NCBI GenBank assembly: GCA_905235625.1
Contig: CAJOLX010000030.1
Location: 1-37,710 of the forward strand
DNA length: 37,710 bases
DNA from: an uncultured Clostridia bacterium
Lineage (GTDB): Bacteria; Bacillota; Clostridia; Oscillospirales; Acutalibacteraceae
Direction of reading: 5' to 3'
The number at the start of each line of letters is the position of its first letter. Within the stretch, counting starts at the first letter, position 1. Under the pieces are notes generated by a model. It was not told the origin of the DNA. It saw only the letters and a list, made by a program, of their open reading frames with translations, and made no database searches. Of this stretch, positions 2,382 to 14,935 are shown piece after piece. Made by a program: the position numbers and the translations under genes.

Positions 2382-3476
2382 TTATATTTCTTTAACGCTG
2401 CCGTTTGTCACCTCAAAAACCTTGCCCCTGCCTTTTCTCAGAAGGGTTGAAGGCTCGCAGCAGGTTATGAACACCTGCCTGTCGCCGAGAAAATTCAGAA
2501 TGAACGACTGCCTGCCTTCGTCGAGCTCGCTCATAACGTCGTCAAGCAGCACGGCGGGGCATTCGCCCGTTATCTTTTCGATTATCGCCGCCTCGCTCAG
2601 CTTCATTGAGAGAGCGCAGGAGCGCTGCTGACCCTGTGAGCCGTAAACTCTTGCGTCTCTGCCGTCGAGCGTGAGCATAAGGTCGTGAGAATGCGGCCCC
2701 GCGGAGGTGTAAGCTCGTTTTACGTCGCTCTCAAAGCTTCTCTCAAGCTCTTTTCTGAATTTTTCTTCTATTGACTTGCCGTCAAGCTCGTCTTTTGAAA
2801 AGCTGTAATAAAAATCAAAGCTTTCTCTGCCCGAGCTTATTCCAGAATAAATTTCTTTTGAATATTCGGACAGCATTTTAACGTAATCTATTCTGTATTT
2901 TATGATTTTTGAGCCGAGAGAGATTATTTCTTCGTCCCAAGGCTCAAAATATTCTCTCATATCGATGCTTTTTTCGCCGAATTTTTTTAAAAGAGAATTT
3001 CTCTGGTCAATAACTCTCAGATATTTGCTCATGAGAAGAGCGTAATTCGGTTTGATAAGGCTCAAGCCTATGTCGAGCAGCTTTCTTCTTTCGGAAGGGC
3101 CTTCTCTCACAAGGCTGAGAGTTGACGGCGAAAACACCACCGCGTAAAAAGAGCCCATAATCGCTCTCGGGCTTTCTTCTTTAACGCCGTTCAGAGTGAG
3201 CTCTTTTTTTAAGCCGATATCCAAAACTGCGTTTTGCTCTCTGCCGCCCGAAAAAAACGAGGTTGATATTTTTGCTTTTTCGCTGCCCTGCCTTATGAGC
3301 TGAATATTTTTTCTGGCTCTGAAAGAATAAAAGCCGGTCATGAGCCAAATGCTCTCTATGAGATTGGTTTTGCCCTGCCCGTTTTCGCCGTAAATGATGT
3401 TCATTTCGGGGTCCGGCTCTATGGAACAAAACTCAATGTTTCTGAAATCGGAAGAGGAATGATTCAATATTTTCAT
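2382..3476 (-). CDS. recF: DNA replication and repair protein RecF
   Basis: RecF is an SMC-like ATPase that helps load RecA at gaps together with RecO and RecR. The 364-residue protein has a Walker A GENGQGKT at 30-37, the ABC signature YGSQGQQRS near 280 and a Walker B/D-loop block AVLLDDVMSELDEGR near 310, matching the usual family length of about 360-370. It follows the S4-domain gene by 30 bases; a GGTGA ribosome site precedes the ATG at 3476. The order dnaN-yaaA-recF is the classic origin-proximal arrangement. RecR is encoded just upstream of dnaN, so two partners of the RecFOR pathway lie in one neighbourhood. Confidence 0.97.
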   Translation of the reverse strand: MKILNHSSSDFRNIEFCSIEPDPEMNIIYGENGQGKTNLIESIWLMTGFYSFRARKNIQLIRQGSEKAKISTSFFSGGREQNAVLDIGLKKELTLNGVKEESPRAIMGSFYAVVFSPSTLSLVREGPSERRKLLDIGLSLIKPNYALLMSKYLRVIDQRNSLLKKFGEKSIDMREYFEPWDEEIISLGSKIIKYRIDYVKMLSEYSKEIYSGISSGRESFDFYYSFSKDELDGKSIEEKFRKELERSFESDVKRAYTSAGPHSHDLMLTLDGRDARVYGSQGQQRSCALSMKLSEAAIIEKITGECPAVLLDDVMSELDEGRQSFILNFLGDRQVFITCCEPSTLLRKGRGKVFEVTNGSVKEI

Positions 3477-3506: not shown

Positions 3507-3746
3507 TTATTCGGCGATATATACGGTTCTTTCAAACTCCACCCAATCGCCTTTTCTTATTTTTTTGCCCCTTTGCAGGCAAACTTCGCCGTTTACTTTG
3601 ACTTCTCCGCCCTGTATCACAATTTTTGCGTGGCCTCCGGTCTGAACGGCGTCGTTCATTTTGAGAAAAGAATCCAATTTGATAAAATCGGTGTCAATTT
3701 TCTTTCTTATTTCTTTCTTTTCGGCAACTTTTGCTTTAATTTTCAT
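3507..3746 (-). CDS. yaaA: S4-domain RNA-binding protein, YaaA/RlbA type
   Basis: This 79-residue protein is essentially one S4 RNA-binding domain: FIKLDSFLKMNDAVQTGGHAK leads into a GGEVKVNGE turn and an RKGDWVEF strand. The family lies between dnaN and recF in many Firmicutes, and members have been linked to ribosome assembly; the exact RNA target is unknown. Its start overlaps the end of dnaN by 11 bases and the ribosome site GAGG lies inside the dnaN end, which implies translational coupling. A run of lysines near the N terminus fits RNA binding. Confidence 0.9.
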   Translation of the reverse strand: MKIKAKVAEKKEIRKKIDTDFIKLDSFLKMNDAVQTGGHAKIVIQGGEVKVNGEVCLQRGKKIRKGDWVEFERTVYIAE

Positions 3747-4845
3747 TTTTGAGCCTCACGGGAAGAATAAGGAAGATGAAATCTTCACCCTCTGTCGGAA
3801 CGACGAGTATGGGAGCGACGGGGCTGTTGAGCATTATTTTAACCTCGTCCGTGTCGCAAACTCTCAGAGCGTCTATCATATATTTATTGTTAAAACCTAT
3901 AGTGATGTCGTCGCCCGTTATTTCCGCGGGAATTTTATCGTTTGAAGCGCCTATTGAAGCCGTGCTTGACATAACGATGCTGTCGTTTGAAAAAACGCAC
4001 TTAATGGGGCTCTTGATTCTGTCGGTGATGATAAGCGACGTTCTGTCGATACTGTCAAGAAAACTGCCGGTATTTACTTTTACAACGGTTTTTGCAGCTG
4101 TGGGAATGGCGGCTTTATAGTTTAAAAATTCGCCGTCAAGCAGCCTTGATATAATGTAATATTTGCCTATTGAAAAAGTTATGTGCCTGTTGCCCACGGA
4201 AAGGCTGACCTTTTCGTCTTCGTCGCCCAAAAGCTTTATCACTTCGTTGAGCGTTTTTGCGGGCACGACGAAGGTAAGCTCCTCGCCGCTGTAATCAATG
4301 TTTTCGTTTCTGATAGCAAGCCTGACTCCGTCAACGGCAACGAGGCGGATGTGGCCCTCTTCAATTTCAAACTTAACGCCCGTGTGAACTATCTTGCTGT
4401 CTTTGACCGCTGCCGAAAAGATGGTTTTTCTAACCATATCTTTAAGCACTCTCTGGTCAAGCTCAACGTCGTATCCGCCCGAAATTGAAGGAAGTTCGGG
4501 ATAATCGTCCGCATTCATTCCGATTATAGAGGTTTTGAAATTGTCGCTCTCTATGGTGGCTATCTGCCTTACGTCCGATTCGATGGTCACTATGTCGCCG
4601 GGAAGCTTTCTTATGGTTTCGCTGAACATATGGGCGTTGAGCACGAGCCTTCCTTCCGCAAGACAAACGCAGGGAATGGTGGTGATGATGCCCATTTCAA
4701 GGTCATAACCCGTTAAAGTGAGCTTGCCGTTTTCGGCGCTGAGCAAAATGCCTTCAACGGCGGGAAGCGCCGTTTTGGTGGAAGCGGCTCTCTGAACTAT
4801 CTGACAAGCATCCGAAAGCTCTGAAGTATTGCAGCTGAATTTCAT
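3736..4845 (-). CDS. dnaN: DNA polymerase III beta subunit (sliding clamp)
   Basis: The 369-residue protein has the typical clamp length and the family ending EDFIFLILPVRLKNEN, close to the conserved LPVR C terminus. N-terminal features (MKFSCNTSELSDACQIVQRA...TALPAVEGILL) match the first clamp domain. The protein forms a dimeric ring that tethers polymerase III to DNA. The start ATG 4845 has a strong GGAGG site seven bases upstream. It is the first gene of the dnaN-yaaA-recF-GDPD-remB operon. dnaA, which normally precedes it, is absent; the upstream gap holds an origin-like sequence and then recR. Confidence 0.98.
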   Translation of the reverse strand: MKFSCNTSELSDACQIVQRAASTKTALPAVEGILLSAENGKLTLTGYDLEMGIITTIPCVCLAEGRLVLNAHMFSETIRKLPGDIVTIESDVRQIATIESDNFKTSIIGMNADDYPELPSISGGYDVELDQRVLKDMVRKTIFSAAVKDSKIVHTGVKFEIEEGHIRLVAVDGVRLAIRNENIDYSGEELTFVVPAKTLNEVIKLLGDEDEKVSLSVGNRHITFSIGKYYIISRLLDGEFLNYKAAIPTAAKTVVKVNTGSFLDSIDRTSLIITDRIKSPIKCVFSNDSIVMSSTASIGASNDKIPAEITGDDITIGFNNKYMIDALRVCDTDEVKIMLNSPVAPILVVPTEGEDFIFLILPVRLKNEN

Positions 4846-4859
4846 ATTTTTACCTCCGT

Positions 4860-5127
4860 AATAACTTTATGGGCGATTGGCTTAAAAAACCGGAATTACT
4901 GCCGAAAAGCAGTATTATATATGTGTAGTAATATATATATTTTAGTAATAGTAGTAGAGTGCGTGAAAATGTGGTGCAACTCCCGAAAGCCTTGTGAGGC
5001 AAGGGATTGAGAGGCTGAGTTTTTAACATTTCGCGCGTGAATAAAATGTGAAGAAAGTGAATAACTCAAACCTGTGTGAAAACCGTGAATTGGGGTGAAG
5101 AAAAAGTGAAAAAAACAGTGAAAAAAA
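4860..5127 (-). other. oriC: Candidate replication origin (oriC) between recR and dnaN
   Basis: No gene fits in this 282-base gap. Read on the minus strand toward dnaN it has three parts in the order known from the B. subtilis basal unwinding system. First come at least eight TTCAC motifs (GTGAA on plus at 5037, 5048, 5057, 5076, 5085, 5095, 5106, 5118) and another at 4963, several matching a DnaA box in eight of nine positions (TTATTCACT, TTATTCACG, GTTTTCACA, TTTTTCACT). Next, after a short CGCACT spacer, come trinucleotides CTA CTA CTA TTA CTA (4957-4943), like the DnaA-trio. Then follows an A/T-only run (about 4942-4929). No exact TTATCCACA is present, so the boxes would be degenerate or lineage specific. 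Confidence 0.6.
4914..4919 (-). promoter_or_regulatory. Probable -10 element of the dnaN promoter
   Basis: TATAAT on the minus strand, 69 bases before the dnaN start, sits at the end of the AT-rich part of the candidate origin. No good -35 lies 16-18 bases upstream, so it may depend on the DnaA-like repeats or be weak. A small hairpin ACTGC/GCAGT (about 4898-4913) follows it. Confidence 0.4.
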
Positions 5128-5727
5128 TCAGAGCGTTTTTCTGCCCTCAATTGCCCTCACAAGAGTGTATTCGTCGGCGTATTCAAGGTCGGCTCCCACG
5201 GGTATGCCGTAAGCAAGCCTGCTCACCTTCACGCCGAGAGGTTTAATGAGCTTTGATATATACATCGCGGTGGCTTCGCCCTCAACCGTGGGGTTCGTCG
5301 CCATTATGACCTCTTTTATTTCGGGGTCCGAAAGCCTCGCTATGAGTTCTTTAATGCAAATATCCTCGGGGCTCACGTCGTTCATCGGTGAAATCGCGCC
5401 GTGCAAAACGTGATATGTGCCGGAATATTCGTTGGTTCTCTCAAACGCCTGAACGTCTCTCGGGCTTTCAACCACGCAGATAACGCTTTTGTCTCTCTCT
5501 TTTGAAGAGCAGATCTGGCAAACGTCGTCGTCGGAAAAATTGCAGCAAACGCTGCACCTTTTCACTTTTTTGCGCGCGTTGAGAATGGCGTTTATAAAAT
5601 CATCCGTTTCGGAATCGCTCAGCGACATCAAATGAAATGCGAGCCTTTGAGCGGTTTTTCTGCCTATTGAAGGCAGAGAGGCAAGCTTATCTATGAGAGC
5701 CTCGAGAGAAGGGGTAAATCCGTTCAT
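5128..5727 (-). CDS. recR: Recombination mediator protein RecR
   Basis: RecR works with RecO and RecF to load RecA on gapped DNA. The roughly 199-residue protein has the N-terminal helix-hairpin-helix (LPSIGRKTAQRLAFHL), a four-cysteine zinc site (CSVC...CQIC), the Toprim block ICVVESPRDVQAFE and the C-terminal GIPVGADLEYADEYTL motif. I use ATG 5727, which overlaps the ybaB stop as TGATG; a TTG one codon upstream is also in frame. dnaX-ybaB-recR is a widely conserved operon. Here it ends directly at the candidate origin, where dnaA would normally be. Confidence 0.97.
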   Translation of the reverse strand: MNGFTPSLEALIDKLASLPSIGRKTAQRLAFHLMSLSDSETDDFINAILNARKKVKRCSVCCNFSDDDVCQICSSKERDKSVICVVESPRDVQAFERTNEYSGTYHVLHGAISPMNDVSPEDICIKELIARLSDPEIKEVIMATNPTVEGEATAMYISKLIKPLGVKVSRLAYGIPVGADLEYADEYTLVRAIEGRKTL

Positions 5728-6068
5728 CAAAGGAGCCCCGGTATGGAAAGGCCGCCTTTAGCCTCTTCCATTCCCTTTTCCATAGCTTCGTTTGCCTTGC
5801 GGATGCTCTCGTTGAATGCGGAGATAATCAAATCCTCAAGCATTTCAATATCTTCCGGGTCAACTACTTCGGGCTTTAACTCTATTTTTGTGACCTGATG
5901 AGCGCCGGTAACGGTAACCTCTACCGCTCCGCCGCCTGCGGATGAAGTGAATTCGGTTTCTTCAACCTCGTGCTGAATTCTCTCCATATTTTCCTGCATT
6001 TCCTGTATTTTTTTCATCATGGCCTGCTGTCCGCCGCCCTGAGCGGCGCCCGGGATTCTTGCTTTCAT
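5727..6068 (-). CDS. YbaB/EbfC family nucleoid-associated protein
   Basis: The 113-residue protein begins with a glycine/glutamine-rich stretch and an amphipathic helix (MMKKIQEMQENMERIQHEVEE), followed by the family beta region GGGAVEVTVTGAHQVTKIELKPEVVDPED and a C-terminal helix. Members are dimeric DNA-binding proteins of uncertain precise role. It lies 26 bases after dnaX and overlaps recR by one base, as in most bacteria. A clear AGGAG site precedes the ATG at 6068. Confidence 0.95.
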   Translation of the reverse strand: MKARIPGAAQGGGQQAMMKKIQEMQENMERIQHEVEETEFTSSAGGGAVEVTVTGAHQVTKIELKPEVVDPEDIEMLEDLIISAFNESIRKANEAMEKGMEEAKGGLSIPGLL

Positions 6069-6094: not shown

Positions 6095-7702
6095 TTAACC
6101 GTTAAACTCGTTTATTTTTGATATGAGTGCTCCCAAAGGGCTCGTTTCATCCTCTTTTTCGGGCTCTTTTTTAGGTATTTCCGCGTTGGTTACGGAAATT
6201 GCCGCTTTCATCTCTTTGCCCGTAACGTCGATAATGGCGTTTTTGAGAGAAGAAGCGTAGTTGTTGCTCACGATATATTCTTTAAGGCTCGCGTTGGTGG
6301 TTAAAATCACTATCTTGCCGTTTTTGTAAATTGCGGAGGTTTCGGAAAGCACGGCAAACAGAGCCATATCGTAGCTTTTGAGTCTCTCTTTGATTTCGGG
6401 CCACAAAGAGAACGGGCCCTCCGGATAATCCGCCGTTTCGACGGGAGGAACTTTTATCTCACGATTATCGGTTTCGGCGGGAGCTTCGGATTTCTCTTCT
6501 TTTTCGTCTTCTTCCGGCTTTTCGGCTGAAACGGGCCCCGGCTCTTCTTTTTTCGGCTCCTCCGTTTTGACCGGAGCGGGCGTTTCTGCTGCGGGCTTAA
6601 CCTGAGGCGAAGGCAGAGAGTCCTTCACTCCGCACATTTTGATAAGAGCGCTTTCGAGAAGAATTCTTTTATTTGAAGCCGTTTTTACGGTGCTGTTGAA
6701 CGAGGACAAAATTTCAATGCATTCGAGAATTTTTGACATTGAAAATTCCGCCGCTCTCTGTTTATATCTTTCAAGGTCTTCCCGTGAGCAAATTATAAGG
6801 TCGCTGCAGTCGTTTACCGATTTTGTGACCATTAGATTTCTGAAATGGTCAAGCAGGCTCGTGCCCAAAAGATAAACGTCGCAGTAGCCGGCGTAAAGCT
6901 CCGATACGAGCAAAAGAGCGGATTTGAAATCGCCGGAGGCTATGTAGCCTGACATTTTGAAAAGATTGTCGGAGCTTGCGACACCCGCCGCTTTTTGAAC
7001 TTCCTCAGAATCTATCTTATCGGAAATGACGGCGCAGCGGTCAAGAATGGAAAGAGCGTCGCGCATGCCGCCGTCCGAAATATTCGCTATGAGCCCCGCG
7101 GCTCTGTCGGTGAGAGTTATGTTTTCATTCTGAGCCACATACTGCAGCCTTGCTTTTATATCCGCGGAAGAGATGCGCCTGAAATCAAACCTCTGGCAGC
7201 GGGAAAGAATAGTGGGCAGCACTTTGTGGATATCGGTGGTGGCGAGAATGAAAATAACGTGCTCGGGCGGCTCCTCAAGCATTTTGAGAAAGGCGTTGAA
7301 AGCGGAGGTCGAGAGCATATGCACCTCGTCGATGATATATACTCTGTATTTCGCGATAGAGGGCAAAAAGTTTATCTTGTCGCGCAGCTCTCTCATTTCG
7401 TCAACGCCGTTGTTGCTCGCGGCGTCCATTTCAACAACGTCCGTCAAGGTGCCGTTATCTATGCCGCGGCAGATTTCGCACTCGTTGCATGGGTTGCCGT
7501 TAACGGCATGAGGGCAGTTTGCCGCTTTCGCGAGCACTCTCGCGCAGGAGGTTTTGCCCGTGCCTCTCGAGCCGGTAAAAATATAGGCGTGAGAAAGCTT
7601 ATTTGACATAACCTCTCTTTTGAGAGTTTCGGTGATATGAGGCTGGCCGTATATGTCGTCAAACGTGGCGGGCCTCCACTTTCTGTAAAGAGCCAAATAC
7701 AT
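6095..7702 (-). CDS. dnaX: DNA polymerase III subunit gamma/tau
   Basis: This is the clamp-loader ATPase of the replisome. The 535-residue protein has Walker A GSRGTGKT at 44-51, a zinc-binding cysteine cluster (NCPHAVNGNPCNECEIC), the Walker B box DEVHM, and the sensor/arginine-finger motif LSRCQRFDFRR. Residues about 365-430 are a proline- and acid-rich linker, followed by a tau-like C-terminal domain. The ATG at 7702 has an AGGGGTG ribosome site. The gene begins 35 bases after the SRP RNA 3' end and may be read from the same promoter, as in Bacillus. I did not find a convincing programmed frameshift site, but did not search exhaustively. Confidence 0.97.
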   Translation of the reverse strand: MYLALYRKWRPATFDDIYGQPHITETLKREVMSNKLSHAYIFTGSRGTGKTSCARVLAKAANCPHAVNGNPCNECEICRGIDNGTLTDVVEMDAASNNGVDEMRELRDKINFLPSIAKYRVYIIDEVHMLSTSAFNAFLKMLEEPPEHVIFILATTDIHKVLPTILSRCQRFDFRRISSADIKARLQYVAQNENITLTDRAAGLIANISDGGMRDALSILDRCAVISDKIDSEEVQKAAGVASSDNLFKMSGYIASGDFKSALLLVSELYAGYCDVYLLGTSLLDHFRNLMVTKSVNDCSDLIICSREDLERYKQRAAEFSMSKILECIEILSSFNSTVKTASNKRILLESALIKMCGVKDSLPSPQVKPAAETPAPVKTEEPKKEEPGPVSAEKPEEDEKEEKSEAPAETDNREIKVPPVETADYPEGPFSLWPEIKERLKSYDMALFAVLSETSAIYKNGKIVILTTNASLKEYIVSNNYASSLKNAIIDVTGKEMKAAISVTNAEIPKKEPEKEDETSPLGALISKINEFNG

Positions 7703-10461: not shown

Positions 10462-11331
10462 TTATTCGAGCGACGAAAGCGCCCTCACTATGCGGGCAAG
10501 GTCGTCTTTGTCGTAAAAATCAATTTCGAGAGTGCCGTTTTCTTTTTTGCCCGTTGTCACGACCTTTGCTTTTCTGCCGAGGGAATTATTGAGCGAAAGC
10601 TCGACCTCGTCAAAAAAGCTGTCGCGCCTTGCCTGTTTGGATTTTTGAGGCGTCTTTGTTTTTGAAAGAGCTTTTGCGAGCTTTTCCGTTTCTCTTACGG
10701 AAAGGCCCTTTTCGGCTGCGGTTTTCGCAAGCTGAATGAGCGCGCGCCTGTCTTCAATGCCGGCGAGAGCTTTTGCGTGGCCTGCCGAGAGCTCTCCCGA
10801 TGAAATGAGAGAAAGAACCTCGTCGGGCAGCTTGAGTATTCTGAGAGAATTCGCGACTGCCGGGCGGGATTTGCCCACGCGCTCCGCCGCCTGCTCCTGA
10901 GTGAGGCCGTATTCGGTGATAAGGCTGTGATAGCCCTTCGCTTCTTCAACGGGGTCAAGGTCTTCTCTCTGCAGGTTTTCAATAAGAGAAATGACCGCAG
11001 CTTCTTCGTCTGAAAGAGGCTTGATTATAACGGGCACCTGCGTGAGTCCCGCGAGCCTCGACGCTCTCCAGCGCCTTTCGCCCGCTATGAGCTGATATCC
11101 TCCGCCCGCAAGAGGCCTCACGAGCAAAGGCTGAAGCACGCCGTGCTTTGAAATGGAATCCGCAAGCTCGGAAAGAGCTTCGTCGTCAAAATTCTTTCTC
11201 GCCTGGTTTTTGTTGGGCTCAATGTCGCTTATTTTAAGCATTACGGAAGACGAGCCGTCGCTGTCCTCCGGAGAATTATCCTGCAAAAGGAAGTCTATTC
11301 CCCTGCCGAGTCCTCTTTTTTTCTCAGCCAT
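10462..11331 (-). CDS. parB: Chromosome partitioning protein ParB (Spo0J)
   Basis: ParB is the CTPase clamp that loads at parS and spreads to organise the origin region. The 289-residue protein has the N-terminal KRGLGRGID motif, the CTP-binding boxes GYQLIAGERRWRAS and ENLQREDLDPVEEA, a helix-turn-helix region (GLTQEQAAERVGKSRPAVANSLRIL) and a C-terminal dimerisation domain. It starts five bases after parA. Two matching parS sites lie at 12188 and 13427, so the whole system is in the window. Confidence 0.97.
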   Translation of the reverse strand: MAEKKRGLGRGIDFLLQDNSPEDSDGSSSVMLKISDIEPNKNQARKNFDDEALSELADSISKHGVLQPLLVRPLAGGGYQLIAGERRWRASRLAGLTQVPVIIKPLSDEEAAVISLIENLQREDLDPVEEAKGYHSLITEYGLTQEQAAERVGKSRPAVANSLRILKLPDEVLSLISSGELSAGHAKALAGIEDRRALIQLAKTAAEKGLSVRETEKLAKALSKTKTPQKSKQARRDSFFDEVELSLNNSLGRKAKVVTTGKKENGTLEIDFYDKDDLARIVRALSSLE

Positions 11332-11336
11332 ATCCG

Positions 11337-12110
11337 TCAGCCTCTCTTTCCGTTTGATTTAAGGAATTCGCGCGCGAGCTTCTCATAAGCCTTCGCGCCT
11401 TTTGAAGATTTATCGTAATACATTATCGGCATGCCGAAGCCGGGAGCCTCCGAAAGACGAACGTTTCTCGGAATCGCGGTGGAATAAACCTTTTTGGGGA
11501 AGCATTTTTTAACTTCATCCACAACTTGTTGTGTCAGATTTAATCTGCCGTCAAACATAGTGAGCAGCACGCCCTCTATTTCGAGATAAGGATTGTAAAG
11601 CCGCTTCACCGTTCTGACGGTGCCGATAAGCTGGGAAAGGCCCTCGAGAGCGTAAAATTCGCACTGAATTGGCACGAGCAGAGTGTCTGCCGCGCACAAG
11701 GCGTTCAAGGTGACGAGACCGAGCGACGGCGGGCAGTCGATGAATATGAAATCATAGTCTTCGTTTACGAGAGCGAGAGCGGTTTTAAGCCTGCTTTCGC
11801 GCTTCTCAAACTCGGTGAGAGCAATTTCTGCGCCCGCAAGGTCCATGCCGGACGGAATTATGCTCACGTTTTTAAACTCGGTTTTAATAATGCAGTCCTT
11901 CGCGGCGCATTCGCCCATGAGCATGTGATAGGAATTGAACTCTATCCCCTTTTTGTTGATGCCGAAACCGCTTGTGGAATTGCCCTGCGGGTCCATATCC
12001 GCAAGCAGAATTTTATATCCTTTGCTGCCGAGCGCGGCGGAAAGATTGACAGCCGAGGTCGTTTTGCCTACGCCGCCCTTCTGGTTGGCAATGGCAACTG
12101 TTTTAGCCAT
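11337..12110 (-). CDS. parA: Chromosome partitioning ATPase ParA (Soj)
   Basis: The 257-residue protein is a deviant-Walker ATPase: KGGVGKTT at 11-18 with both the signature and P-loop lysines, then FIDCPPSLG (Walker B region) and the VLLTMFDGRLNLTQQV block. Soj-type length without an N-terminal DNA-binding domain indicates the chromosomal form. It partners ParB, and in Bacillus Soj also regulates DnaA. The gene has its own promoter (12143-12171) and a parS site just upstream, a common autoregulatory layout. Confidence 0.97.
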   Translation of the reverse strand: MAKTVAIANQKGGVGKTTSAVNLSAALGSKGYKILLADMDPQGNSTSGFGINKKGIEFNSYHMLMGECAAKDCIIKTEFKNVSIIPSGMDLAGAEIALTEFEKRESRLKTALALVNEDYDFIFIDCPPSLGLVTLNALCAADTLLVPIQCEFYALEGLSQLIGTVRTVKRLYNPYLEIEGVLLTMFDGRLNLTQQVVDEVKKCFPKKVYSTAIPRNVRLSEAPGFGMPIMYYDKSSKGAKAYEKLAREFLKSNGKRG

Positions 12111-13056: not shown

Positions 13057-14935
13057 TCTTTCTCTTCCTTTCAAGATAAACGATTAACACCGACGTGTCG
13101 GCAGGGGAGACACCCGAAATTCTTGACGCCTGACCGACAGTTTCGGGGCGTATCTTGCCGAGCTTTTCAATAGCTTCAAGCCTTAATCCCGTTATCTCGG
13201 AGTAATCTATATCTTCGGGAATGGCTTGCTTTTCAAGCCGTTTCATTTCGTCTATCTGACGCTGCTGCCTGTCGATATATCCCTCATACTTTATGTCTAT
13301 CTCGACCTGCTCAAATATTTCGTCGGGATAATCGGGCCTGTCGGGGTCAAACGGAGCGAGAAGCTCGTAGTCAACGCAGGGGCGTTTGAGCAGCTCCGCC
13401 ATTTTGAGGCCCTTTTCGAGCGGAGATGTTCCACGTGAAACAAGGGCGCTGTCAAGCTCGTCGCATTTCTTTATTGATACGGCTTTGGCCCTTTCTTTTT
13501 CGCTCTCGATCATCGCAAGCTTTTGCTTAAAGCGCGCGTAGCGCTCCTCGGATATGAGCCCCGCTTGATAGCCGTATTCGGTGAGCCTTCTGTCGGCGTT
13601 ATCCTGCCTCAAAATAAGGCGGTATTCCGAGCGGCTCGTCATCATTCTGTAAGGGTCGGAGCAGCCTTTAGTTGTGAGGTCGTCAATAAGAGTGCCTATA
13701 TAAGAAGTGGTGCGGTCGAGCACGAGGGGATGCTTTTTCAAAATCTTGAGGGCGGCGTTTACGCCTGCTACAAGACCTTGAGCGGCTGCTTCTTCATATC
13801 CGCTTGAGCCGTTGAACTGCCCTGCGCCGTAAAGCCCGGGGAAGTCTTTAAATTCAAGGGTTTGCCGCAAAGCGAGAGGGTCAACGCAGTCGTATTCTAT
13901 GGCGTAGGCGGTGCGCAGAAACTCCGCGTTTTCAAGCCCGTGTATGGAGTGAACTATGCCGAGCTGAACGTCTTCGGGCAGAGAGGACGAAAGCCCTTGA
14001 AGATACATTTCGTCCGTTTTCTCTCCGCAGGGCTCAACAAAAATCTGATGCCTTTCCTTTTCGGAGAAGCGGACTATTTTATCCTCTATGCTCGGGCAGT
14101 ATCTCGGCCCCACGCCGTCTATTTTGCCGCTGTAAAGAGGGGAGCGGTGAAGATTGTCGAGTATTATCTTTTTGGTTTCTTCGCCCGTGTAAGCTATGTA
14201 GCAGGGGAGCTTGTTTTCGGGCTTTTTTTCGCTCTCAAAAGAGAAAGCGACCGTTTTTTCGTCGCCGAACTGCGGCTCGAGCGCCTTTGTGTCAACGCTT
14301 CTCAGGTTTATTCTCGGCGGAGTGCCTGTTTTAAAACGCCTTGTGGGAACGCCCAGCTTTTTAAGGGAGAGAGCAAGGCTCGTCGCGGGGAACATGCCGT
14401 CCGGACCGCTTTCGTAGGAAACGTCGCCTATATAAACTCTGCCGGCAAGGAAAGTGCCGGTAGCGAGAATTACGGCTTTTGCCCTGTGCTTTGCCTCAAG
14501 CCTTGTAGTGAGAAGCCAGAAATCGCCGTCTTTTTCTATATCGGTTATTTCCGCCTGCCTTAAAAACAGGTTTTGCTGCCTTTCGAGCGTCGCTTTCATA
14601 TATTCGGAATAAGCTCTGCGGTCTATCTGAGCCCTGAGCGAATGCACCGCGGGCCCTTTGCCTTTGTTGAGCATACGGGACTGCAGGGTGTTTGCGTCCG
14701 CCGCTTTTCCCATTTCGCCGCCGAGAGCGTCTATCTCTCTTACGAGATGCCCCTTCGAGGTGCCGCCTATTGAGGGATTGCAGGGCATGTTGCCCACCCA
14801 GTCAAGGTTAACGGTGAACACGGCGGTTTTAACTCCGAGGCGCGCGCAGGCAAGGCCCGCCTCAATGCCGGCGTGCCCCGCTCCGATTACTATTACGTCA
14901 TAGTTTTCAGCGTCATAAGTCATAGGTGTGCTCAC
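13046..14935 (-). CDS. mnmG: tRNA uridine-5-carboxymethylaminomethyl modification enzyme MnmG (GidA)
   Basis: The 629-residue FAD enzyme modifies wobble U34 together with MnmE (not in this window). It has the N-terminal dinucleotide motif YDVIVIGAGHAGIEAG, the MPCNPSIGGTSKGHLVREIDALGG block, GLYGAGQFNGSSGYEEAAAQG, and the C-terminal helical domain ending SRISGVSPADTSVLIVYLERK. The start is uncertain: GTG 14935 has a close ACAGGA site; ATG 14923 is also in frame but far from it. The gene overlaps udg by 23 bases with the GTG start. A perfect parS site lies inside the coding region. Confidence 0.97.
   Translation of the reverse strand: MSTPMTYDAENYDVIVIGAGHAGIEAGLACARLGVKTAVFTVNLDWVGNMPCNPSIGGTSKGHLVREIDALGGEMGKAADANTLQSRMLNKGKGPAVHSLRAQIDRRAYSEYMKATLERQQNLFLRQAEITDIEKDGDFWLLTTRLEAKHRAKAVILATGTFLAGRVYIGDVSYESGPDGMFPATSLALSLKKLGVPTRRFKTGTPPRINLRSVDTKALEPQFGDEKTVAFSFESEKKPENKLPCYIAYTGEETKKIILDNLHRSPLYSGKIDGVGPRYCPSIEDKIVRFSEKERHQIFVEPCGEKTDEMYLQGLSSSLPEDVQLGIVHSIHGLENAEFLRTAYAIEYDCVDPLALRQTLEFKDFPGLYGAGQFNGSSGYEEAAAQGLVAGVNAALKILKKHPLVLDRTTSYIGTLIDDLTTKGCSDPYRMMTSRSEYRLILRQDNADRRLTEYGYQAGLISEERYARFKQKLAMIESEKERAKAVSIKKCDELDSALVSRGTSPLEKGLKMAELLKRPCVDYELLAPFDPDRPDYPDEIFEQVEIDIKYEGYIDRQQRQIDEMKRLEKQAIPEDIDYSEITGLRLEAIEKLGKIRPETVGQASRISGVSPADTSVLIVYLERKRKNEL
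13427..13442. promoter_or_regulatory. parS: parS centromere site 2, inside mnmG
   Basis: TGTTCCACGTGAAACA, a full match to the parS consensus, is embedded in the mnmG coding sequence about 1.2 kb from site 1. Confidence 0.95.

Follow-up and report, generated by a model that had tools for sequence, protein, structure and literature searches.

A probable replication origin between recR and dnaN, parted from dnaA, and a clade-specific change of DnaA-box type in a Clostridial genus

Where does a chromosome start its replication when the gene upstream of dnaN is recR and not dnaA? We addressed this question in a 37,710-nucleotide stretch of DNA from an uncultured Clostridia bacterium of the gut (the window), which is all of contig C30 in a 2.06-Mb genome of 93 contigs. 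On its minus strand, the window carries dnaX (6095..7702), ybaB/ebfC (5727..6068; TIGR00103), recR (5128..5730), dnaN for the beta clamp (3736..4845; TIGR00663) and recF (2382..3476; TIGR00611), all with model matches above their cut-offs. As an earlier note made from the sequence alone had claimed, recR stands in for dnaA upstream of dnaN; most other families of the order carry dnaA there. That note read the gap between the two genes as oriC of a genome whose dnaA has moved elsewhere and whose DnaA boxes are of an altered type. Very probably, this recR-dnaN gap (4846-5130, 285 bp, minus strand) is indeed the chromosomal replication origin, opened by DnaA from a distant gene, and one branch of the genus switched its boxes from TTWTCCAC (the C5 box; compare TTATCCACA) to TTWTTCAC (the T5 box; compare TTATTCACA).

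The gap holds nine TTCAC motifs, which start on the minus strand at 5122, 5110, 5099, 5089, 5080, 5061, 5052, 5041 and 4967. The first eight span 86 bases, just as had been reported, and form an array of putative T5-type DnaA boxes (5037..5122, minus strand), a reading that builds on the TTWTCCAC sites in the same gap of a sister clade; the spacings reported with them had the right values but the wrong direction, the correct 5'-to-3' series being 12, 11, 10, 9, 19, 9 and 11. Upon shuffling the 285-bp gap with its doublets preserved, TTCAC occurred 1.24 times on average and at most 6 times, with nine or more in 0/20,000 shuffles, and a run of five YTA triplets arose in 1/20,000. In the rest of the window, no 90-nt stretch carried more than three TTCAC on one strand. 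Scanning the whole genome for three TTCAC with 3-20-base gaps yielded 13 matches, against one for the reversed control, and six of the 13 were the recR-dnaN array itself. Three overlapping matches lay on contig C22 and one on C69, both places being mainly intergenic, and the remaining ones were inside an ORF of the window (25794), on C7 (17327) and on C12 (16273). The match on C69 (L157:979-1004) is an intergenic cluster of three TTCAC with nagA adjoining.

Toward dnaN, and still on the minus strand, there follow a trio-proximal pair of boxes, TGCACCACA and ATTTTCACG, with one base in common (4962..4978), a 4-base spacer CACT (4958..4961; CCCC in many relatives), a DnaA-trio run CTA CTA CTA TTA CTA (4943..4957; of the 3'-GAT-5' type on the other strand) and an AT-rich stretch of 30 bases with 90% A+T (4913..4942). 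The short spacer described earlier between the ninth TTCAC and the triplets is thus present (GCACT, then CTACTACTATTACTA at 4957-4943), as is the A/T-only run after them, which counts 14 bases (4942-4929) and passes into further AT-rich DNA. Right behind the AT-rich stretch, this genome has a short hairpin, TACTGC-loop-GCAGTA (4897-4914). We dropped the idea that the gap acts as a hairpin or RNA: its single-strand DNA fold had a z of -1.06, and a comparison of 4500-5500 with Rfam gave nothing that reached the gathering threshold.

The order of boxes, short spacer, DnaA-trios, AT-rich DNA and dnaN is that of the basal unwinding system (BUS) described for incC in B. subtilis and oriC2 in C. difficile, and the C. 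difficile trio, given as 5'-CACCTACTACTATTACTACTATGA-3' in the available text of PMC7561715, is nearly identical to the one found here. Those two elements lie between dnaA and dnaN, whereas here recR is upstream, dnaA is distant and the boxes are of the T5 type. A BUS has a box with at most 2 mismatches to the motif of its species, placed 0-16 bp from three or more trios whose middle base is A, and in the gap ATTTTCACG lies 4 bases from five such trios. As ATTTTCACG has 1 mismatch to TTWTTCACN but 4 to the E. coli box TTATCCACA (hand count), this agreement holds only with a species motif, which the BUS rule allows (PMC8287927, in the part available). The second, weaker box of a BUS (at most 4 mismatches) may correspond to TGCACCACA, which has 3 mismatches to TTATCCACA by hand count, overlaps the first box by one base and is conserved in the genus; the box cluster is beyond chance by the shuffles above, and the genome encodes a DnaA. 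In B. subtilis, the boxes farther upstream in incC are believed to increase the local DnaA concentration, and boxes 6/7 open the DNA together with the trios (PMC6669920 and PMC8287927, available parts), while C. difficile unwinds at oriC2 (PMC7561715, likewise). By analogy with these two species, we hypothesize that DnaA from the distant gene would fill the eight-box array and thereby raise its local concentration, and would polymerise from the spacer-adjacent box onto the CTA/TTA trios, opening the AT-rich DNA before dnaN.

The gap was compared across 36 relatives of the same genus; the named ones are largely MAGs from the gut of ruminants and horses, which carry the labels Clostridia, Oscillospiraceae or Ruminococcaceae. 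A recR match was obtained in 34 of the 36, and the two others (G001 and G032) yielded neither recR nor dnaN in the search. Both genes were found in 35 genomes, including our own, with the order recR-gap-dnaN in 34/35; the exception, G015, has another gene upstream of dnaN, yet the same kind of gap with boxes and trio. In 35/35 gaps upstream of dnaN, the 46 bases before the trio aligned gap-free, and the genus consensus of gTTaTaCCAcATTTTCACgc, four spacer bases and trios kept a fixed box-spacer-trio spacing. An alignment of relatives had been proposed as a check in the earlier note, and both the triplets and the box array came through it (35/35 gaps). A stringent trio pattern matched in 22/45 genus genomes, at a single place in each, and in 19 of these, all but G060, G062 and G065, the match was located to the known gap. 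With overlapping matches included, the pattern gave 31 matches in total and its reversed form 38, and because the reversed pattern is the commoner one, the weight of the trio pattern lies in its position and not in its number.

That dnaA lies elsewhere was borne out. The Bac_DnaA model matched strongly on contig C7 of our genome (213.6 bits) and weakly on C78 (42.8 bits); the C7 protein is above the TIGR00362 DnaA cut-off, and its gene is flanked by rpmH/rnpA and ftsY (rnpA-rpmH-dnaA-ftsY). Across the genus, ftsY is next after dnaA in 30/30 loci (L034-L063) and in 3/4 further ones (L118-L121), and rpmH precedes dnaA in 24/30 and 4/4 of these loci, respectively, some flanks being short. The contigs with dnaA and dnaN measure 581 and 109 kb, respectively, in G020, and 444 and 242 kb in G016, which sets the two genes at least ~287 kb (G020) and 295 kb (G016) apart, provided that the assemblies are correct. 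Other families of the order have dnaA followed by dnaN in 18/21 loci (L122-L142), and among loci L303-L330, dnaA-dnaN was found in 24/28 and recR-dnaN in three (L303, L305 and L326, the last from a close relative of the window), with one locus cut. A different rearrangement of the neighbourhood occurs in another family at L132 (G047), where ybaB, recR and dnaA are adjacent and dnaN is on another contig.

By a simple pattern, a trio-like run was present in 37/49 dnaA-dnaN gaps and in 25/28 recR-dnaN gaps (incomplete loci L308 and L331 excluded), indicating that the recR-dnaN element corresponds to the unwinding region of the dnaA-dnaN arrangement and that the break lies between this element and dnaA. 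Since most other families retain dnaA-origin-dnaN, the gene orders suggest that the unwinding half of the origin was parted from dnaA, leaving an origin-dnaN half and an rpmH-dnaA half; the recR-dnaN gap would then match what other families have between dnaA and dnaN. The ancestor would have had dnaA-origin-dnaN and probably another cluster of boxes upstream of dnaA, and the cut would have fallen between dnaA and the unwinding half. The split perhaps happened more than once. On a quick DnaN tree with many long branches, G035, which belongs to the genus and has recR-dnaN, has the dnaA-dnaN loci L306, L307 and L309 as neighbours, which leaves room for more than one split; a further branch from this unresolved fork comprises the dnaA-dnaN loci L310-L320. 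The near relatives at L304, L306, L307 and L309 have dnaA and dnaN linked, and no rpmH was found before dnaA within the flank covered; either the split was not single or dnaA returned.

Could the active origin lie elsewhere, for example near dnaA, so that the recR-dnaN array would be a relic or a DnaA-controlled promoter element of dnaN? The earlier note had called for a search for the array beside dnaA. The trio was absent from 28/28 rpmH-dnaA gaps of the genus, where boxes averaged 0.82 against 0.65 expected, and 23 loci of other families had 1.83 against 0.84; these counts cover the 51/57 loci in which both rpmH and dnaA were found, with simple base shuffles as controls. Our own genome has 3 boxes before dnaA against 0.8 expected, which speaks for an origin there. 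With ftsY after dnaA and no trio in these 28 gaps, the dnaA locus differs from the bipartite Bacillus/Clostridium origin, oriC1-dnaA-oriC2, in which dnaA is adjacent and has boxes on both sides.

The parS sites point to the recR-dnaN gap. Using the parS motif TGTTTCACGTGAAACA, we found sites with at most 2 mismatches at two places only in our genome (12188..12203 and 13427..13442, 1 mismatch each), both in the window and 7-9 kb from the array, and zero matches to the reversed control. Nearby are a parA-like ATPase gene (11337..12110, minus strand), for which every ParA/MinD-type model stays below its curated cut-off, and parB of the ParB/Spo0J family (10462..11331, minus strand; TIGR00180 above its cut-off, the Noc model under its own). 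On recR-dnaN contigs of relatives, two parS sites lie 6-13 kb from the gap in 5/5, whereas the dnaA contig stretches of G016 (400 kb) and G014 (200 kb) contained zero and the dnaA contig of G020 (580 kb) had one poor match, 127 kb from dnaA.

The GC skew, whose check the earlier note had also proposed, gave a divided answer on five recR-dnaN contigs of relatives, where it was computed in 5-kb windows with gene-strand bias as a regressor. The best change, from negative to positive, fell within one 5-kb window of the gap in three contigs (200 kb with the gap at 198.6 in G022, 95 with 95.2 in G026 and 95 with 96.1 in G024), and it missed the gap in two, namely G019 (125 versus 198.5 kb, 74 kb off) and G020:C25 (40 versus 89.3 kb, 49 kb off and weak). 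In the window itself, the skew followed no clean pattern. The dnaA contigs of G016 and G014 showed no skew change of origin polarity at dnaA. On G020:C27 (L081, 340001-360000), a change of origin polarity occurs at 355 kb, ~42 kb from dnaA at 312.6 kb (F 28 at the change, F 21 at dnaA), which counts against an origin between recR and dnaN, as do the two misses. Set against the trio, spacing and boxes kept in 35/35 gaps, the parS pairs near recR-dnaN and the lack of a trio in all 28 rpmH-dnaA gaps, these points leave an active origin elsewhere very unlikely. The earlier reading as oriC is therefore supported by the conserved gap, the parS sites nearby, the skew in 3/5 contigs and the trio-free gaps beside dnaA.

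Another thought is that a protein other than DnaA, such as ParB, binds the TTCAC repeats: the half-site of parS TGTTTCACGTGAAACA and the repeats have TTTCAC in common, and parB lies ~5 kb from the array. This is very improbable, given that the same gap of the sister clade carries TTWTCCAC, a DnaA box, and that the array is placed before a DnaA-trio.

Taking the repeats as DnaA boxes, we found that their type divides the genus. In the T5 clade (13 genomes, including our own), the gaps contain 87 TTCAC and 2 TCCAC, compared with 37 and 75 in the C5 sister clade (18 genomes) and 7 and 15 in four basal genomes. Among exact TTNTNCAC sites, position 5 is T or C in 25 and 1 in the T5 clade versus 14 and 68 in the C5 clade; the 13 T5 genomes have T 25, C 1 and A 1, and thus share T at position 5 with the Epsilonproteobacterial type of DnaA-box pair. 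The altered box type claimed earlier can accordingly be refined to TTATCCACA with C5 changed to T, which is still within the relaxed E. coli consensus TTWTNCACA. Base composition as the cause was ruled out, the gap GC being 0.330 in T5 versus 0.317 in C5 genomes; the flanking TTCAC:TCCAC ratios are similar as well, 110:25 (12 loci, T5) and 132:40 (18 loci, C5). Many C5 genomes also have TTCAC in their trio-proximal box, so that it is the array that switched. In a tree built from DnaN together with DnaA minus its domain IV, G015 grouped with the 12 other T5 genomes at a support of 0.98, indicating one switch; on the DnaN-only quick tree, the position of G015 was unresolved.

The same base changed at a second locus. 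On C22 (L149:1494-1605, about 2734-2870), a DnaA-type box array with a fixed 12/9-bp spacing (GTGAA-7-GTGAA-4-GTGAA) has nth on one side, with a match over the cut-off, and on the other an ogg-like gene, whose best model, ogg, stays below its cut-off. This exact geometry directly follows nth in 12/12 T5 genomes and in 0/18 others (G008, with a partial nth match, excluded). The other genomes have a matching array upstream of ogg, mostly GTGGA, the boxes of the sister species being of the TTWTCCAC type, with two boxes 12 bp apart in 15/16 and the full triple in 6/16. Within nth/ogg regions of 200-260 bp, we counted the base complementary to box position 5: the 12 T5 genomes gave A 53, G 0, C 2 and T 1, compared with G 52, A 6, T 6 and C 1 for 16 others (G014 and G001, where the search yielded no ogg, excluded). 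The origin and the nth/ogg array are on different contigs in our genome and ~13 kb (G014), 29 kb (G023) and 67 kb (G026) apart elsewhere. That the same base changed in two separate arrays points to a change in their common reader. The nth/ogg array is possibly a DnaA titration or regulatory site.

We therefore looked at the DnaA positions that contact bases, which are 399, 423, 432-435 and 438-439 (PMC5043019, available part), with the E. coli numbering placed via the B. subtilis row of the alignment. The survey covered 95 loci, each with 100 aa or more of the C-terminal part of DnaA and with a gap 100-700 bp long, and the clade counts exclude T5 genomes G009 and G028 and C5 genome G005, which yielded no full DnaA. 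R399 is present in 95/95 rows and R434 in all 28 T5 and C5 genomes. Position 423 is Q/N in 11/11 T5 genomes and K/E in 17/17 C5 genomes, and position 438 is H in 10/11 T5 genomes (L in G015) and L/F in 17/17 C5 genomes; B. subtilis DnaA has P423, H434 and I438. As G015 has T5 boxes with L438, H438 is not required, and as the tree has one switch event, the link to residues has an n of 1. From this covariation, we infer that the box specificity of DnaA changed and that these residues may be the cause, although for Epsilonproteobacteria the available text of PMC5043019 considers the variation of helix 4 at 423 an unlikely cause.

Alternatively, DnaA might treat T5 and C5 boxes as equivalent, the clades differing by drift under the relaxed TTWTNCACA consensus. 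The E. coli consensus has N at position 5 (PMC5043019, same part), the tree has one switch only, and C5 genomes hold T5 sites too (14/89 exact TTNTNCAC); yet replacement is near-complete at two loci (87:2 versus 37:75 and 53:0 versus 6:52) with composition unchanged, the changes at contact positions coincide with the switch, and for H. pylori DnaA that text describes binding to a C5 box that was much weaker than to a T5 box. Drift is hence unlikely. We consider it reasonably probable that the initiator-origin code was rewritten within the genus, in that the DnaA of one branch came to prefer TTWTTCAC over TTWTCCAC as its helices 4 and 5 changed (contact positions 423 and 438), while the boxes of the origin, already parted from dnaA, and those of nth/ogg were converted together. 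Across the order, this reading adds further variants (position 433 from D to N/Q/T with C6-to-A6 boxes), so that DnaA-box specificity would evolve repeatedly here.

To our knowledge, DnaA and its box are usually taken as nearly universal. Our literature search, which covered titles and the openings of abstracts and outside which most subscription journals lay, returned no T5/C5 switch within a genus and no such Clostridial split of dnaA and origin. Epsilonproteobacteria (H. pylori, A. butzleri, W. succinogenes and S. denitrificans) likewise have T5 boxes with a TTCAC core and altered DnaA helix-5 residues, mostly K432 and S435 and often S438, as far as the available text of PMC5043019 describes them, whereas our genome belongs to another phylum and has Q423, R434, H438 and Y439. 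With R432, T435 and H438, it also departs from the Epsilonproteobacterial helix-5 set of Lys432, Ser435 and Ser438; its DnaA-box pair is akin to that type in outcome but is not a member of it. Unlike in the Epsilonproteobacteria described there, the genus still includes sister species with C5 sites, and the T5 boxes look like a Clostridial case independent of the Epsilonproteobacterial one. Compared with the conservation described in the available part of PMC7561715, our clade and its sister depart at DnaA positions 423, 434 and mostly 439, and differ in their boxes. The oriC of Cyanothece 51142 also lies between another ORF and dnaN and not between dnaA and dnaN, with boxes TTTTCCACA and no mention of a trio in the available text of PMC4674748; here, the departure from the dnaA-dnaN arrangement can be followed by comparison inside a single taxonomic order. 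The T5 and C5 clades offer a natural pair for testing in what way the target sites of an essential initiator can change while replication is kept, and the gap a case of the unwinding half of an origin working, or having to work, far from dnaA. Both call for caution with origin finders keyed to dnaA or to TTATCCACA.

Across the order, 16/95 rows have a residue other than D or H at position 433 of DnaA, and 13/13 of the resolved ones have mostly A at box position 6; with D or H at 433, such A6 boxes occur in 19/66 (the box-6 majority was called in 79/95 rows, with ties and rows of fewer than two boxes excluded). The link between position 433 and box position 6 is suggestive only, with 3 independent pairs on a quick tree and a sign test p of at least 0.25. 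In other families of the order, L310-L320 and others carry TTTTNAACA-type boxes before dnaN.
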